Source: Polyangiaceae bacterium | GTDB lineage: Bacteria; Myxococcota_A; Polyangia; Polyangiales; Polyangiaceae | Direction of reading: 5' to 3' | Assembly: GCA_019637265.1 (NCBI GenBank) | Contig: JAHBVY010000002.1 | Coordinates: 186,001-250,000, forward strand | DNA length: 64,000 bases | Part shown: positions 6,533 to 56,891 of the stretch, in pieces | Layout of the letters: each line of letters begins with the position of its first letter | Position numbering within the stretch: position 1 is the first letter of the stretch | Notes under the pieces: generated by a model | Databases searched by the model: none | The model's input: only the letters and a program-made list of their open reading frames with translations | What the model was told of the DNA's origin: nothing | Translations under genes and position numbers: made by a program

Positions 6533-10617
<4,085 letters not shown>

Positions 10618-24170: not shown

Positions 24171-24289
24171 GCCACGCTTCTATCATGATGAGCAGGCGCC
24201 GCTCTGGGGTGGAGGGTTTCGGCGAGCCACTCCATGGCGGCGCGCCGTGGGCCTACCCCTGCGGGCGCAAACGGGCTACCGTGACCACG

Positions 24290-24376
24290 TTGCTCGGGGC
24301 GCACCTTGACCCAAGGTGCTGAGAAGGACCCGTCGAACCTGATCCGGTTTGTACCGGCGTAGGGAATGCGACCCCC
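24290..24376 (+). promoter_or_regulatory. TPP riboswitch (THI element)
   Basis: The conserved thi-box elements are present in order: GGGGC start, GGTGCTGAGA, ACCCGTCGAACCTGATCCGG, then TACCGGCGTAGGGAA and closing CCCC. It ends about 43 bp before thiC, whose ribosome site is GGAGAG. TPP binding is expected to lower thiC expression. Confidence 0.95.
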
Positions 24377-24418
24377 TCCTCTGTGCCGTGAGCGCGCGTT
24401 GAACCACGAGGAGAGATC

Positions 24419-51351: not shown

Positions 51352-52212
51352 ATGTCGACCGCCGTCCCCCAAGCGCCCGAACCGTCCCACTCGAAGCTGC
51401 CGCCGCTGGCCGAGCCGGGTTACGACTTTCAGGGCGCCACCTTCGATCTCACCCGCGAGGAGGACCGAAACATCGTCCGCTTCATCTTGTCGCAGGCGCT
51501 GTATGGCGAGGCCACCGGCGTCTACTGCGGGAAATCTCTGTACGCCGCGGGCTCCCTCGAGGCGGCGCGCTTCTACCTGCGCCAGGCGAAGCAGGAGCTG
51601 AACCACCTCAGCACCTTCGCCGAGATCTTCCGCGCCCTGGAGCTCACCCCAGAGCCCGCGCACTGGGCAGTGAAGCTGCTCTCTTCCCACAACAACTACT
51701 ACCCGCTCAAGGTGATGATGGAGCACGCCCTGGGCGAGGGCATGGTGCTCGACATCTTCAAGGATCTCCTACTGCAAACCCTGCCCGACAGCGACCCACG
51801 CGTGCCCGGCATCAAGAAGAAGCTCCGCGTGGTGTGCCGCGAGGAGCAGGAGCACGTCGCCTGGGGTGAGAAGGAGACGCGGCGTATCCTCACGGAAATG
51901 CCGCACCTGCAGCTGCCGTTCTACGGCCTCTTGGAGCTGCAGATGGCGGTGGTGCCGTTCCTGACCAAGGCCTTCCAAGGCCGCGCCGCGGGCCACCCGG
52001 TGCTCGAGCACCTCACGCCCTTCCTCGACTTCGTGCGGGCGCGCGTGTTCGAGCAGGGGCGCGCCCTCGGCATCGTCCCCGAAGAGCGCCCCGGCTTCGC
52101 CAAGCGGCAGCTCGCGATCGCCGCGGGGCTCGCGCTCTACGCGCGGAGCCAGGTGGCGCGCAGCACCTCCAAGCTCGAGAAGATCTACCTCCGCGAGCTG
52201 GGCTTCGAATAG
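51352..52212 (+). CDS. Ferritin-like domain protein
   Basis: 286 residues, all helical, soluble. Probable di-metal ligands: EATGVYCGKS, FYLRQAKQELNHLSTF, MMEHALGEGMVL and CREEQEHVAWGEKETRR, giving four Glu and two His on a helix bundle as in ferritin-like oxidases and rubrerythrin-type proteins. No substrate can be named. It is convergent with nrdB; a shared role in iron or radical chemistry is possible but unproven. Confidence 0.78.
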   Translation: MSTAVPQAPEPSHSKLPPLAEPGYDFQGATFDLTREEDRNIVRFILSQALYGEATGVYCGKSLYAAGSLEAARFYLRQAKQELNHLSTFAEIFRALELTPEPAHWAVKLLSSHNNYYPLKVMMEHALGEGMVLDIFKDLLLQTLPDSDPRVPGIKKKLRVVCREEQEHVAWGEKETRRILTEMPHLQLPFYGLLELQMAVVPFLTKAFQGRAAGHPVLEHLTPFLDFVRARVFEQGRALGIVPEERPGFAKRQLAIAAGLALYARSQVARSTSKLEKIYLRELGFE

Positions 52213-52309: not shown

Positions 52310-53329
52310 TCAGAAGGCGGCGTCGAAGGTCACCTCGCCGGTGACGCCCACCTGATAGGCGGAGACGCGCCGCTCGAAGAAGTTCGTCACCTCCTGCACG
52401 TCTTGGAGATCCATGAAGCTGAGCGGGTTCGCGGTGCCGTAGCGCTTCGGCAGCCCCAAGGTGACCAGGCGCTGATCGGCGCAATGCTCGAGGTAGCCGC
52501 GGATGCTCGCCGGGGTGAGCCCAGCGACCCCACCCTCGAGCAAGTCTTCCGCGAACTGCGACTCGCACTCGATCGCCTCATCCAGCATCTCGTAGATGGA
52601 CGCGACGAGCGCATCGTCGAACAGCTCGGGCTCCTCACTGCGCACCGTCTTCACCACCTCGAAGGCGAAGGCCATGTGCGCGCTCTCGTCGCGGAACACC
52701 CAGTTCGTCCCCGCGGCCAAGCCGTGGAACAAGCCGCGCGACCTCAGGAAGTACACGTAAGCGAAGGCGCCGAAGAAGAACAAACCCTCGATGCACGCCG
52801 CGAAACAGATCAGGTTGAGCAAGAACTGCCGCCGATGCTCGCGCGTCTCGAGCGCGGTGAGACCCTCGATGGAGTCGATCCACCGCTGGCAGAACAGCGC
52901 CTTCTTGCTGATGGAAGGGATGTGCGTCACGGCGGCGAAGGCGCGGCTCCGCTCTTCGACGTCGGGCACGTAAGTGTCGAGCAGCGTGAGGTAGAACTGC
53001 ACGTGCAGCGCCTCTTCGTACAGCTGCCGCGACAAGTACATGCGCGCCTCCGGCGCGTTGATGTGGCGATACAGGTTCAGCACCAGGTTGTTCGCGACGA
53101 TGGAGTCCCCGGTGGCGAAGAAGGCCACCAGGCGCTCGATCATGTGGCGCTCGGCGGGCGTGGTCTTGCTCTTCAGGTCCGAGGTGTCCGTGGAGAAGTC
53201 GACCTCCTCCACCGTCCAGGTGTTCTTGATGGCCGCGCGGTACATCTCGTAAAAGCGCGGGTAGCGCATCGGGCGCAGCGTCAGGCAGTGACCTGGGTCG
53301 AGGATGTTCTGGGGTCTTTCGCTGTTCAT
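52310..53329 (-). CDS. nrdB: Ribonucleoside-diphosphate reductase class Ia, beta subunit
   Basis: 339 residues. The subunit generates the tyrosyl radical with a di-iron centre. RQLYEEALHVQFYLTLLDTY carries the metal Glu and His with the radical Tyr four residues after His, as in E. coli Tyr122. AACIEGLFFFGAFAYVYFL and NWVFRDESAHMAFA supply the remaining Glu and His ligands. The C-terminal end VTFDAAF is shorter than in E. coli. Its ATG overlaps the nrdA stop by four bases. Confidence 0.95.
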   Translation of the reverse strand: MNSERPQNILDPGHCLTLRPMRYPRFYEMYRAAIKNTWTVEEVDFSTDTSDLKSKTTPAERHMIERLVAFFATGDSIVANNLVLNLYRHINAPEARMYLSRQLYEEALHVQFYLTLLDTYVPDVEERSRAFAAVTHIPSISKKALFCQRWIDSIEGLTALETREHRRQFLLNLICFAACIEGLFFFGAFAYVYFLRSRGLFHGLAAGTNWVFRDESAHMAFAFEVVKTVRSEEPELFDDALVASIYEMLDEAIECESQFAEDLLEGGVAGLTPASIRGYLEHCADQRLVTLGLPKRYGTANPLSFMDLQDVQEVTNFFERRVSAYQVGVTGEVTFDAAF

Positions 53330-55794
53330 TGGCAGGCCTCACAGCTCTCGGGGTTCTCGAGGGAGCAGGCGACGGCCTCAGCCTCCGTCACCCGCGGCGG
53401 CTCCGGGGTGTAGCCGCGCGCCGCGTGCGGGGAGCCTTCAGGATCCGAGGCTTGCTCGGGAGCGCTCTCCTTGGCCGTGGTGTGCGCGATGCGGGTCGCC
53501 GGGCGCGACCGCAGGTAGTAGCTGGTCTTCAGGCCTTTTTTCCATGCATAAAAATACATGCTGGAGAGCTGACCGATGTTCGGGTTCTCGATGAACAGGT
53601 TGAGGGACTGGCTCTGGTCGATGAAGGCGCCGCGATCCGCCGCCATGTCGATGAGCGAGCGCATCGGGAGCTCCCACGCGGTGCGATAGATGCGCCGGAG
53701 CGACTCCGGCAGCGCGCTCAGCTGAGCCACGGAGCCCTCGGCGCGCTTCAGCGCGGCGCGCGTCTCCTCGCTCCAGAGGCCGAGCAGCTTGAGCTCCGAC
53801 ACCAGGTAGCGGTTGATCTGGATGAAATCGCCGGAGAGCGTCTCTCGCTTGAAGAGGTTCGAGACCTGAGGCTCGATGCCCTCATAACAACCCGCGATGG
53901 ACGCGATGGTGGCCGTCGGCGCCACCGCGATGAGCAGCGAGTTGCGGAGGCCGCGCTCCTGGATCCGCGCGCGCAGCGCGTCCCAACGAGCGCCGTCCTC
54001 CGGCGTGATGCCCCAGGCGTCGAACTGGAGCTCCCCGCGCGCCGCCCGCGTCTCCGCGAAGGCCGGGTGCCTGCCGCGCTCCTCCGCGAGATCACACGAG
54101 GTGGTGAGCGCGTGGAAGTAGATGGTCTCCGAGATGCGCCGCGAGAGCTCGCGCGCCGGCTCGGAGTCGAACGGCAAGCGGAGCTGGAACATCACGTCCT
54201 GGAGGCCCATCACCCCGAGCCCCACCGGGCGCCACATCAGGTTGGAGCTCTGAGCCGTAGGGATCGGGTAGAAGTTGAGATCGATCACGCGATCGAGTTG
54301 CCGCACGGCAATTTTCACGGTCTCCGCCAGGCGCTCGAAGTCGAAGCACGGCAGGCCGTCCTCCGTGCGCGTCATGTGGCGCCCCAGGTTGATGGAGCCG
54401 AGGTTGCACACCGCGGTTTGATCCTCGGAGGTGACCTCGAGGATCTCGGTGCACAGGTTGGAGAGGTGCACCACGCGCCCCGGCAGCGCGGTCTGGTTGC
54501 AGGCGCGGTTCGACTTGTCCTTGAAGGTCATCCAGCCGTTCCCGGTCTGCGCCAGGGTGCGCATCATGCGCGCGTACAGATCGCGCGCCGGCACCGTCTT
54601 CACCGCGAGCCCAGCGCGCTCCGCTGCCTCATAGGCGCGGTCGAACTCCTCACCGTAGAGGTCCGGCAGCTCGGGCACCGTCTTCGGATCGAACAGGCTG
54701 AACGGTTCGTCCGCCTCCACCCGGCGCATGAACAGGTCCGACACCCAGTTGGCGAGGTTCAGGTTGTGGGTGCGCTTGGCCTCGTCCCCCGTGTTGTCGC
54801 GCAGCTCCAAGAACTCCTCGATGTCGGCGTGCCAGGTCTCGAGGTACACGCAGCACGCGCCCTTGCGCTTGCCGCCCTGGTTCACCGCCGCCACCGACGC
54901 GTCCAGCGTCTTCAGCCACGGGACGATGCCGTTCGAGTGACCGTTGGTGCTCTCGATCAGCGAGCCGCGCGAGCGCACTCGGTGGTAAGCGAGGCCGATG
55001 CCGCCCGAGAACTTCGAGAGCAGCGCGATGTCGGTGTAGCGCTTGTAGATGTCCTCCAGGTGATCTCGCGGGGAGTCCAGGAGGAAGCAGCTCGAGAGCT
55101 GCTCGTGAGGCGTGCCGGAGTTGAACAGGGTGGGAGAGCTCGGGAGGTACCGAAGGCTCGAGAACCGTTCGTACAGCTCGAGCGCCTCGGGCACCGTCTC
55201 TGAGAGCGCGCAGGCGACGCGCATGAAGAAGTGCTGCGGCGCCTCCACCGCGAGGCGCGTGGTGGGGTGCTTCAAGAGATAGCGATCGTACAGGGTGCGG
55301 AGCCCGAAATACTCGAACTCGCGATCGCGAGCCGCCAAGATGGCGTCGTCGAGCTTGCGCGCGCTGGTCGCGACGAAGTCCTGCAGGCGGTCGTTCACCA
55401 GGCCTAATTTCCTCGCGGATTGCACCGCCTGGGAGAACGACTGGATCCCCTGGTTTCGCACCTCTTTGTCGATGTAGGTGGCGAGCAGCCGCGCGGCGAG
55501 CCGTGAATACTCGGGCTCCTCCGCGATGAGCCCCGCCGCCGTTTGGATGGAGATGCGGTCGAGCTCCTGGGTGGAGGCGCCGTCGTACAGGCCGCTGATG
55601 GTGCGGGTGGCGACGCGCACCGCGTCCACCTCCGCCAGGCCCGCGCAGCAGCGGTTCACTGCCCGAACTATCTTGCTGACGTCCACCGGCTCCTTCGCGC
55701 CGCTGCGCTTGGTGACCCGCATGGTGGTCTGGGTGTCCGGCTCTCGCTCCTCGCGCGACGCCGTCCGCGCGTCGCTCATCAACTCGGTCTGCAT
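53326..55794 (-). CDS. nrdA: Ribonucleoside-diphosphate reductase class Ia, alpha subunit
   Basis: 822 residues. An ATP-cone domain comes first (about 25-115, MRVTKRSGAKEPVDVSKIVRAVNRC), then the catalytic barrel with LSSCFLLDSPRDHLEDIY, SNLCTEILEVTSEDQTAVCNLGSINL (active-site Cys) and APTATIASIAGCYEGIEPQ. The C-terminus CSLENPESCEACQ is the redox-shuttle Cys pair, close to the eukaryotic and Chlamydia R1 form. Start ATG 55794 follows GAGGGAGCGGGAG. Regulation: cobalamin riboswitch, NrdR-like palindrome and strong promoter upstream. Confidence 0.95.
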   Translation of the reverse strand: MQTELMSDARTASREEREPDTQTTMRVTKRSGAKEPVDVSKIVRAVNRCCAGLAEVDAVRVATRTISGLYDGASTQELDRISIQTAAGLIAEEPEYSRLAARLLATYIDKEVRNQGIQSFSQAVQSARKLGLVNDRLQDFVATSARKLDDAILAARDREFEYFGLRTLYDRYLLKHPTTRLAVEAPQHFFMRVACALSETVPEALELYERFSSLRYLPSSPTLFNSGTPHEQLSSCFLLDSPRDHLEDIYKRYTDIALLSKFSGGIGLAYHRVRSRGSLIESTNGHSNGIVPWLKTLDASVAAVNQGGKRKGACCVYLETWHADIEEFLELRDNTGDEAKRTHNLNLANWVSDLFMRRVEADEPFSLFDPKTVPELPDLYGEEFDRAYEAAERAGLAVKTVPARDLYARMMRTLAQTGNGWMTFKDKSNRACNQTALPGRVVHLSNLCTEILEVTSEDQTAVCNLGSINLGRHMTRTEDGLPCFDFERLAETVKIAVRQLDRVIDLNFYPIPTAQSSNLMWRPVGLGVMGLQDVMFQLRLPFDSEPARELSRRISETIYFHALTTSCDLAEERGRHPAFAETRAARGELQFDAWGITPEDGARWDALRARIQERGLRNSLLIAVAPTATIASIAGCYEGIEPQVSNLFKRETLSGDFIQINRYLVSELKLLGLWSEETRAALKRAEGSVAQLSALPESLRRIYRTAWELPMRSLIDMAADRGAFIDQSQSLNLFIENPNIGQLSSMYFYAWKKGLKTSYYLRSRPATRIAHTTAKESAPEQASDPEGSPHAARGYTPEPPRVTEAEAVACSLENPESCEACQ

Positions 55795-56010
55795 GCTCCC
55801 GCTCCCTCGATAACTAGTCAGTTAACCAGCCCATCTGTGGGCCGCGCGTAGCGGCCCTCGCCCCGACCGTCACCCCCTCGGGTGAACGACGCCTGACGCA
55901 GCTCGGCTGACCACGCAGCGACGCTCAGCTCCGCGAGCCGCCCTGCGTGCCCCGCCCGAGCCGCCCCGCGGCGCCTCAGTCGAACCAGCGCGGGCTTTCT
56001 CTCCCGAGCT

Positions 56011-56240
56011 GGGTGCTGGTAGGTCTTCGGGCTCCGAGCACGCGGCGTGGCGCCGCTTGCCTACTCTCCACCGCTTCCCAGAGGGCGAGCCCCCAGTGCG
56101 TCAGGCGTGGATTTCGTTCTCGATACCGCTGCGGGGCAGCCCTGGAATCACACCAGGTTCCCTTGACGCCCCGCGCGAGGTGCCCCCTGAAGAGCCGCCT
56201 TGCGTGAGCCGCCACGCTCCTGAAACGCCAGGAGCACCAA
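56011..56240 (-). promoter_or_regulatory. Cobalamin (B12) riboswitch upstream of nrdAB
   Basis: Read on the minus strand, the core runs CAAGGGAACCTGGTGTGATTCC, then GGGCTGCCCCGCAGCGG, which is the B12-box region. The 3' element CCCGAAGACCTACC (56018-56031) is the expected partner (consensus near CxGAAGACCTGCC). Closing stem GGTGCT (about 56238) with AGCACC (about 56013) forms P1. About 215 nt remain before nrdA for an expression platform. Confidence 0.82.
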
Positions 56241-56245
56241 CACAG

Positions 56246-56261
56246 CCCCTATATATTGGGG
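56246..56261. promoter_or_regulatory. 16-bp palindrome CCCCAATATATAGGGG over the -10, NrdR-box-like
   Basis: CCCC and GGGG arms flank an AT-rich core, as in NrdR operators of ribonucleotide reductase promoters. It covers the -10 box of the nrdAB promoter. I see no clear second box at the usual spacing. Confidence 0.5.
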
Positions 56262-56278
56262 TACTGCACAGCTGTCAA
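56250..56278 (-). promoter_or_regulatory. Near-consensus sigma-70 promoter for nrdAB
   Basis: On the minus strand, TTGACA (56278-56273), 17-bp spacer, TATATA (56255-56250). The predicted start near 56243 lies just before the riboswitch, about 450 nt ahead of nrdA. Confidence 0.75.
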
Positions 56279-56477
56279 CCGACATCTTGGGCAGTGAACG
56301 CAGGCGCAGGTTGGGCGGGGAAAGGCGCCGCGAGCCGCCGAAGGCCTGGCTGGCGCACCAGGGTGCCGTGGGGCGGAACCCAACCCCCCCCAAAAACCGG
56401 CCCCCAAAACGCTGCGAGCCAGCGCAGGGCTGGCTCGATAGGCAGGGTGGCGAACCACCCACTGGGACGTCGAACGC

Positions 56478-56891
56478 TCAGGCGCGCGCCTTGGCCTGGG
56501 CCTTCTTGCTGCGCGCCACCTTCTTCTTCGGAGCGGGCGGCTTCGCCTTGGCGGCGCGACCGGCGCGGCGCTTGGCGGCGCCGTGCTGATCGAGCAGCGC
56601 GGGGGTGGAGAGGCGCTCCAGCCGGGTCTTGAAGCCGTCGTCCTTGGTGCGCTTCTCCAGCTCCTGGATGGCGGCGACCAGCTTGGCGCGGCTGCCGAAC
56701 TGCTCCTTCACCGTGGTGAGCACCTCATGCAGGTGGAGCAGCTTCTTGTTGGGGACCTTGGCGAGGCCCTTGGTCTCGTTCACGCGGTCGATGAAGAGCT
56801 CTTCAGTGGCCAGCGCCTGCACGGCGGCGACCAGCTTCTCCTTGGACTCGAACTTTGCCTTGACGATCTGAAGGGGGGATTGCTTGGACAT
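56478..56891 (-). CDS. Lys/Ala-rich small basic protein
   Basis: 137 residues. The first about 100 residues are helical and contain an internal repeat (FESKEKLVAAVQALATEELF, then FGSRAKLVAAIQELEKRTKD); the C-terminal 35 are Lys/Ala/Pro-rich (AKAKPPAPKKKVARSKKAQAKA). The basic tail resembles histone H1-like or AT-hook-free DNA/RNA-binding tails. I recall close relatives in myxobacteria without a function. A nucleoid or ribosome-associated role is inference. Confidence 0.75.
   Translation of the reverse strand: MSKQSPLQIVKAKFESKEKLVAAVQALATEELFIDRVNETKGLAKVPNKKLLHLHEVLTTVKEQFGSRAKLVAAIQELEKRTKDDGFKTRLERLSTPALLDQHGAAKRRAGRAAKAKPPAPKKKVARSKKAQAKARA

Follow-up and report, generated by a model that had tools for sequence, protein, structure and literature searches.

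A predicted cobalamin riboswitch, paired NrdR boxes and candidate tandem docking hairpins in the class Ia nrdAB leader of a Polyangiaceae bacterium

Introduction

Switching between ribonucleotide reductases according to B12 supply is already known from Streptomyces, from Propionibacterium acnes (nrdAB and nrdDG) and, for NrdDG, from Desulfovibrio. Borovok et al. are said to have described in 2006 a B12 riboswitch in the leader of the Streptomyces class Ia operon nrdABS, the class II NrdJ and NrdR also being present. In P. acnes, the nrdAB promoter has an NrdR box, a cobalamin riboswitch lies in the 5' leader, nrdJ is located elsewhere, and transcripts end ahead of the first gene (PMC3848588). 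Desulfovibrio vulgaris and Desulfuromonas carry B12-elements on nrdDG, for which the same switching argument has been made (PMC545781). Corrinoid riboswitches act via an L5–L13 kissing loop, which in P. megaterium metE depends on CCG of L5 and CGG of L13 (PMC10653944) and in M. tuberculosis metE on the L5 cytidines (PMC11260477). The NrdR consensus is acaCwAtATaTwGtg; the box usually occurs twice, with an integral number of helix turns between the copies (PMC4009431). What we take from these five papers refers to the portions of them that were accessible.

Here we analysed a stretch of 64,000 nucleotides from a Polyangiaceae bacterium (the window). A preliminary description had placed a cobalamin riboswitch on a class Ia nrdAB operon in it and predicted an nrdJ elsewhere in the genome, with enzyme choice by B12 supply. 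Our analysis indicates that, very probably, an AdoCbl-type riboswitch lowers the expression of class Ia NrdAB when coenzyme B12 is plentiful and leaves the dNTP supply to NrdJ, with an NrdR-box pair at the promoter and an off form made by L5–L13 docking as parts of the same arrangement.

Results

Reductase genes of the genome

On the minus strand of the window, nrdA (53326..55794) encodes a large subunit of 822 aa with an ATP-cone (PF03477), a class I N-terminal domain (PF00317) and a barrel (PF02867). The start of nrdB (52310..53329, minus strand; 339 aa; PF00268) overlaps the nrdA stop. Alignment with yeast R2 indicated that the radical-site Tyr113 of this small subunit is retained, four residues past a metal-site histidine. 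The combination of an ATP-cone NrdA with an NrdB that has metal ligands and a radical tyrosine assigns the operon by sequence to class Ia, as the preliminary description had it. A 286-aa ORF convergent with nrdB (51352–52212, plus strand) had no NCBIfam, PHROGs or Pfam match.

A search of the host genome (5.71 Mb, 21 contigs, 98.5% complete) for the class I/II barrel found two genes only, the window nrdA and one on contig C5. The latter encodes an NrdJ of 1082 aa, which scored 1336 bits with NF005122 (cut-off 859) and 573 bits with TIGR02504 (cut-off 400) and has PF08471, the N-terminal domain of class II; the predicted nrdJ is thus present. The genome also encodes nrdR (C1:91762–92202), and no class III NrdD was found in it. 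Cobyric acid synthase CobQ was not found in this genome by a search that was positive in 13 of 14 control genomes, so corrinoids or B12 are probably imported, a setting in which B12 supply would vary.

Two further cobalamin riboswitches of this genome, L001:1501–1633 (+) and L003:1501–1658 (−), precede lipoprotein-like genes without a Pfam family (L009:5501–6946 and L010:15425–16693), possibly new corrinoid-uptake parts. The L003 riboswitch is divergent from a gene for the methylmalonyl-CoA mutase small subunit. A switch acting on this mutase was considered and rejected because the riboswitch, in a locus that is not inverted, is directed the opposite way, into a 422-aa gene.

Aptamer in the nrdA leader

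An Rfam scan of the whole window gave a single match to the cobalamin family RF00174, at 56163–56021 on the minus strand (66.3 bits; gathering score 31.5; E 3.7e-14). The other Rfam match above gathering score was a TPP riboswitch at 24285–24383 (+), with 69.5 bits. The cobalamin match covers positions 45–169 of the 189 in the model, and its aligned parts are the P3–P6 core, L5, the long P7–P12 arm with CACUG...GGGAAG, and the B12 box. Since the model matches these parts without P1 and P2, the earlier wording of a riboswitch 'core and 3' element' ahead of nrdAB was accurate. By eye, GGTGCT (56238–56233) and AGCACC (56017–56012) can be joined into a P1 of 6 pairs, and this sets the outer limits of the aptamer at 56012..56238 (minus strand). 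The RF00174 alignment and a comparison of leaders placed P5/L5, GCUGCCCCGCAGC, at 56128..56140 (minus strand); L5 reads CUGCCCCGCAGC, with CCC present, and is the loop expected to dock with L13. These features point to an AdoCbl-type aptamer, to which binding of the ligand is predicted.

Promoter and NrdR boxes

A likely sigma-70 promoter was recognized by eye at 56250..56278 (minus strand), with TTGACA at 56278–56273, a 17-base spacer and TATATA at 56255–56250. A pattern scan gave no promoter at the nrdA leader, because its pattern requires T as the last base of the -10 hexamer. We used a weight matrix made from the box pairs of nine relatives, chosen by hand from a consensus scan of the nrdA loci of the order with the host genome excluded. 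It identified NrdR box 1, GCCCAAGATGTCGGTT, at 56277..56292, overlapping the -35 hexamer, and box 2, CCCCAATATATAGGGG, 31 bp further on at 56246..56261 and overlapping the -10 hexamer, both on the minus strand and in the same layout as in relatives. This pair (56292/56261) scored 29.8 bits, as compared with 10.5 bits for the best non-overlapping pair on the same strand of the window. The interval of the preliminary description, 56011–56278, thus also takes in the promoter and a complete NrdR box, which had not been named.

A box pair was also found at nrdJ (25.0 bits, spacing 31), starting 517 bp upstream of the nrdJ start; the weight-matrix scan found none at the nrdR gene. The boxes 31 bp apart at the promoter, together with the nrdR gene, place nrdAB in a predicted NrdR regulon, and the predicted binding sites at nrdAB and nrdJ show a second layer of control. 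Between the box pair and the start codon of nrdJ (L008:7516–8033) there are 4.6 copies of a 27-base repeat (7794–7916) that can form hairpins.

Among the 39 riboswitch-bearing nrdA leaders of the named genomes described below, 28 had a box pair scoring above all 100 shuffles, one of them (L050) being from the same genome as a member of the weight matrix. In 27 of the 28, box 2 extended over the first 8–13 bases of the Rfam match. The other 11 leaders, including all four Nitrospira-labelled ones, stayed under the shuffle-beating level.

Leader hairpins behind the aptamer

Side-by-side comparison of the leaders, in which the aptamer and the NrdA match are 87–403 nt apart, revealed a recurring small hairpin closed by C-G and with the loop GNGG. 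Two such hairpins of L13 type lie in the window leader on the minus strand: hairpin B (CGCC-GCGG-GGCG; 55962..55973), weak here with 4 pairs and conserved in position in relatives, and hairpin C (UCACCC-GAGG-GGGUGA; 55870..55885), which is strong and was found by the leader comparison. GNGG hairpins with at least 5 pairs numbered 58 in 51 leaders (14.2 kb), as compared with 1.3 ± 1.0 in 100 shuffles (maximum 4). In this set, L050 replaced L016, which is from the same genome, and the limits of the window aptamer were set by eye at 56241–56009. The hairpins fell into two groups, about 20–45 and 100–150 nt behind the aptamer, and a few lay at 180–210 nt. When pairing was disregarded, the bare motif CGNGGG was present in zone B of 45 leaders and in zone C of 41 of the 51. 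It was flanked by at least 4 further pairs in 27/49 cases in zone B and 25/59 in zone C, and in 0/7 between the zones and 0/55 in coding sequence. In the 37 distinct rows of zone B, outer pair 1 forms in 35, pair 2 in 31 and pair 3 in all 37, with C-G/U-A exchange at pairs 1–2; for pairs 2 and 4 a register slid by one scores equally, and zone C is less clean in pair count.

In the nrdAB aptamers, L5 reads CUGCCCCGCAG in every row that covers it except L019 (CUGCCCCGCAA), and GNGGG loops can pair with its CCC or CCCGC. On the basis of this complementarity, of their position and of their co-occurrence with the aptamer, hairpin B was assigned as L13 and hairpin C as a second L13, which makes them candidate docking hairpins for L5. 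It is quite conceivable, however, that the two hairpins are protein-binding or stability elements that accompany the aptamer. L5 hardly varies, so that covariation between L5 and L13 cannot be scored, GAGG loops pair imperfectly with CCCGC, and the accessible corrinoid-riboswitch literature holds no precedent for a second L13 far downstream; such elements would be in keeping with all three. The distribution of the hairpins argues for docking instead. They track the aptamer, occurring in 40 of the 51 aptamer-bearing leaders versus none of 21 nrdA leaders without it (500 nt), and by eye a GGG-bearing hairpin directly follows the aptamer in many other cobalamin riboswitches of the order, at the place where L13 is expected. 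Twenty of these control riboswitches, hand-picked from the upper part of the RF00174 list of the order, had three GNGG hairpins, each no more than about 20 nt away from the aptamer, and their second zone was empty; a strict hairpin 60–230 nt behind the aptamer was present in 25 of the 51 nrdAB leaders.

For docking hairpins, we tentatively propose that a single AdoCbl aptamer works on a platform in which L13 is present twice, or three times in some species, about 25 and 110 nt behind it. L5 could dock with the near copy and later, as transcription proceeds, with the far one, giving a second chance of shut-off in a long leader or a graded response.

An intrinsic terminator was considered as the off step and rejected, since none was found at 55700–56500; the off step would therefore probably be Rho-dependent termination or a loss of translation. 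It is also not evident that a docking hairpin would itself cover the nrdA ribosome-binding site, since the start codon follows B by about 170 nt and C by about 75 nt. Between B and C, C exceeded G in 23 of 28 measurable leaders but, by eye, not in this genome, and we do not claim a C-rich Rho-loading stretch here. The fold of the whole leader had a z of −1.80, with 7 of 100 shuffles equally good.

The unit of NrdR-box pair, aptamer, tandem hairpins and nrdAB recurs in Myxococcota and Xanthomonadales, which may reflect its spread, or its long retention, as one cassette. Nitrospira-labelled bins have the aptamer, the tandem hairpins and nrdAB without a detectable box pair.

Strength of the window aptamer

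The window aptamer scores below most nrdA aptamers of its relatives (66.3 versus mostly 85–128 bits). Together with the coverage of model positions 45–169 only and the four pairs of hairpin B, this would fit a decaying remnant, with nrdAB now under NrdR alone. We consider decay improbable, because the core, the B12 box and L5 are intact, the score exceeds the cut-off by more than a factor of two, a P1 can be traced by eye, and hairpin C is strong. Similar scores were obtained for the nrdA aptamers of L019 (65.2) and L102 (66.7), and nrdJ has been kept in the genome.

Distribution of aptamer and NrdJ

The 96 genomes examined of the same order included 89 with RF00174, 89 with NrdJ (PF08471) and 24 with a close NrdA. 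The aptamer lay directly upstream in 13 of the 24 NrdA loci, and 12 of these 13 genomes had NrdJ; the exception, G094, in which nrdJ was not found, is 88% complete and in about 1380 contigs. The 11 loci without the aptamer comprised two partial ones (L035 and L036, which cover only part of nrdA and were excluded from the testable loci), seven with NrdJ, and two (G011 and G017, of one genus) without it.

Named genomes with an NrdA alignment provided 80 loci, in Myxococcota (Labilithrix, Polyangium, Minicystis, Archangium, Nannocystis and others), in Nitrospira- and Acidobacteriota-labelled bins, and in Xanthomonadales. NrdJ (PF08471) was found in all 37 non-xanthomonad genomes. Six of their loci (L051, L055, L065, L076, L086, L092) had almost no sequence upstream of nrdA; the aptamer was present in 21 of the other 31 and absent in 10, eight of them being Myxococcaceae (L073, L094, L095, L100, L107, L113, L116, L118), which have both reductases but, upstream of nrdA, lack the aptamer and the GNGG hairpins alike. 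An Archangium bin with an aptamer upstream of nrdA has a second cobalamin riboswitch about 1 kb downstream of the gene (L049:4917–5120 (+), 119.9 bits).

PF08471 matched in none of 42 xanthomonad genomes, though many carry the aptamer at nrdA. TIGR02504, applied to 24 xanthomonad genomes, found NrdJ above its cut-off in 17 and in two frames in one, and none in six. This model recognises another type of NrdJ, which settles the apparent contradiction. PF08471 was therefore rejected as the sole test for nrdJ, since it misses the xanthomonad NrdJ and is unusable alone for calling class II reductases absent. Three Stenotrophomonas maltophilia genomes (G152, G165, G170; L099, L115, L122) have a frame of 856–886 aa that scored 124–157 bits per piece with TIGR02504, far below the cut-off; it encodes a reductase-like protein and no typical NrdJ.

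We sent 23 of the 43 xanthomonad loci to Rfam. The aptamer was found at 18, and the genomes of all 18 had NrdJ; it was missing at five (two Stenotrophomonas, UBA6001, Coralloluteibacterium and L075, the last lying outside the nrdJ comparison). Thus, among the 22 xanthomonad genomes with both features known, 18/18 with the aptamer had NrdJ and 4/4 without it lacked NrdJ. The xanthomonads examined that have no nrdJ also have no riboswitch, a natural control for the switching logic.

A tree of NrdA with 70 rows had 49 with aptamer and NrdJ, 14 with NrdJ only, six with neither and one with the aptamer only (G094, scored as lacking nrdJ). It left out the duplicates L050=G051, L085=G018 and L087=G036, the six loci without upstream sequence, L075, the 20 xanthomonads not sent to Rfam, L035 and L036, and L033 and L089 (without the frame motif). 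NrdJ was present in 49 of 50 aptamer-bearing genomes, and the aptamer was absent in six of seven genomes without nrdJ (Fisher p 0.0017 over the 70 rows, kinship ignored). On the tree, the aptamer had to change seven times and NrdJ four times. Across the four independent NrdJ contrasts, the aptamer changed in the same direction in three and in the opposite direction in none, with one tie (sign test p 0.25, a test that so few contrasts cannot bring to significance). The aptamer thus tends to be absent where NrdJ is absent, as the switching model predicts. NrdJ is no guarantee of the aptamer: owning both enzymes does not by itself predict the riboswitch, because 14 of 63 nrdJ genomes lack it, eight of these 14 being Myxococcaceae.

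Discussion

The covariance match, the nrdJ gene and the co-occurrence of riboswitch and nrdJ in relatives support the earlier proposal of enzyme choice by B12 supply. Transcription would begin at the promoter covered by the NrdR-box pair, so that NrdR could lower both nrdAB and nrdJ when the supply of deoxyribonucleotides is sufficient, and the riboswitch would pick between the enzymes. With plentiful coenzyme B12, the riboswitch would lower the B12-independent NrdAB, this being the sign of response that we infer, and deoxyribonucleotide synthesis would be left to the B12-dependent NrdJ. The bound ligand would let L5 dock with an L13-type leader hairpin and so fix the off form.

That the riboswitch activates, or serves something besides enzyme choice, is very improbable: an activating corrinoid riboswitch is known at A. 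halodurans cobT (PMC10653944, accessible part) and the platform here is unusual, but B12 switching on of a B12-independent enzyme would be senseless with nrdJ present, the known nrd cases repress in what is accessible of their reports (PMC3848588, PMC545781), and the aptamer is missing from the xanthomonads that lack nrdJ. Repression by B12 thus stays our reading, and it would extend B12-driven choice of ribonucleotide reductase to Myxococcota. NrdR and riboswitch would be stacked on one short promoter–leader unit, combining control by deoxyribonucleotide level with control by cofactor supply. If both tandem hairpins dock, more than one L13 would serve a corrinoid riboswitch here, giving a platform on which models of kissing-loop regulation can be tested.

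The candidate tandem docking-hairpin platform is likely new. A literature search of partial coverage returned no paper evidently on nrd riboswitches in Myxococcota or xanthomonads, or on more than one L13, which is a weak negative. The nrdABS operon of Streptomyces, as reportedly described, has in common with the present locus a B12 riboswitch on a class Ia leader, an NrdJ and an NrdR, and differs in phylum. P. acnes shares the NrdR box at the nrdAB promoter, the cobalamin riboswitch leader and the separate nrdJ; in the accessible text, it differs in having a single nrd-box at nrdAB where there is a pair here, nrdR in an operon with nrdJ where they are apart here, and an nrdDG, which was not found here (PMC3848588). 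D. vulgaris and Desulfuromonas likewise have a B12-independent reductase behind a B12 riboswitch and an NrdJ in the genome, but, according to the part of the paper available, their enzyme is of the anaerobic class III, whereas the one here is of the oxygen-dependent class Ia (PMC545781). The metE leaders of P. megaterium and M. tuberculosis resemble this locus in that metE encodes a B12-independent isozyme, and the L5–L13 kissing loop that couples aptamer and platform in them is predicted here (PMC10653944, PMC11260477); the M. tuberculosis leader is also without a clear intrinsic terminator in the account at hand (PMC11260477). In the accessible portions of the two reports one L13 hairpin is described for each metE leader (PMC10653944, PMC11260477), whereas the nrdAB leaders have two, and sometimes three, hairpins of L13 type.
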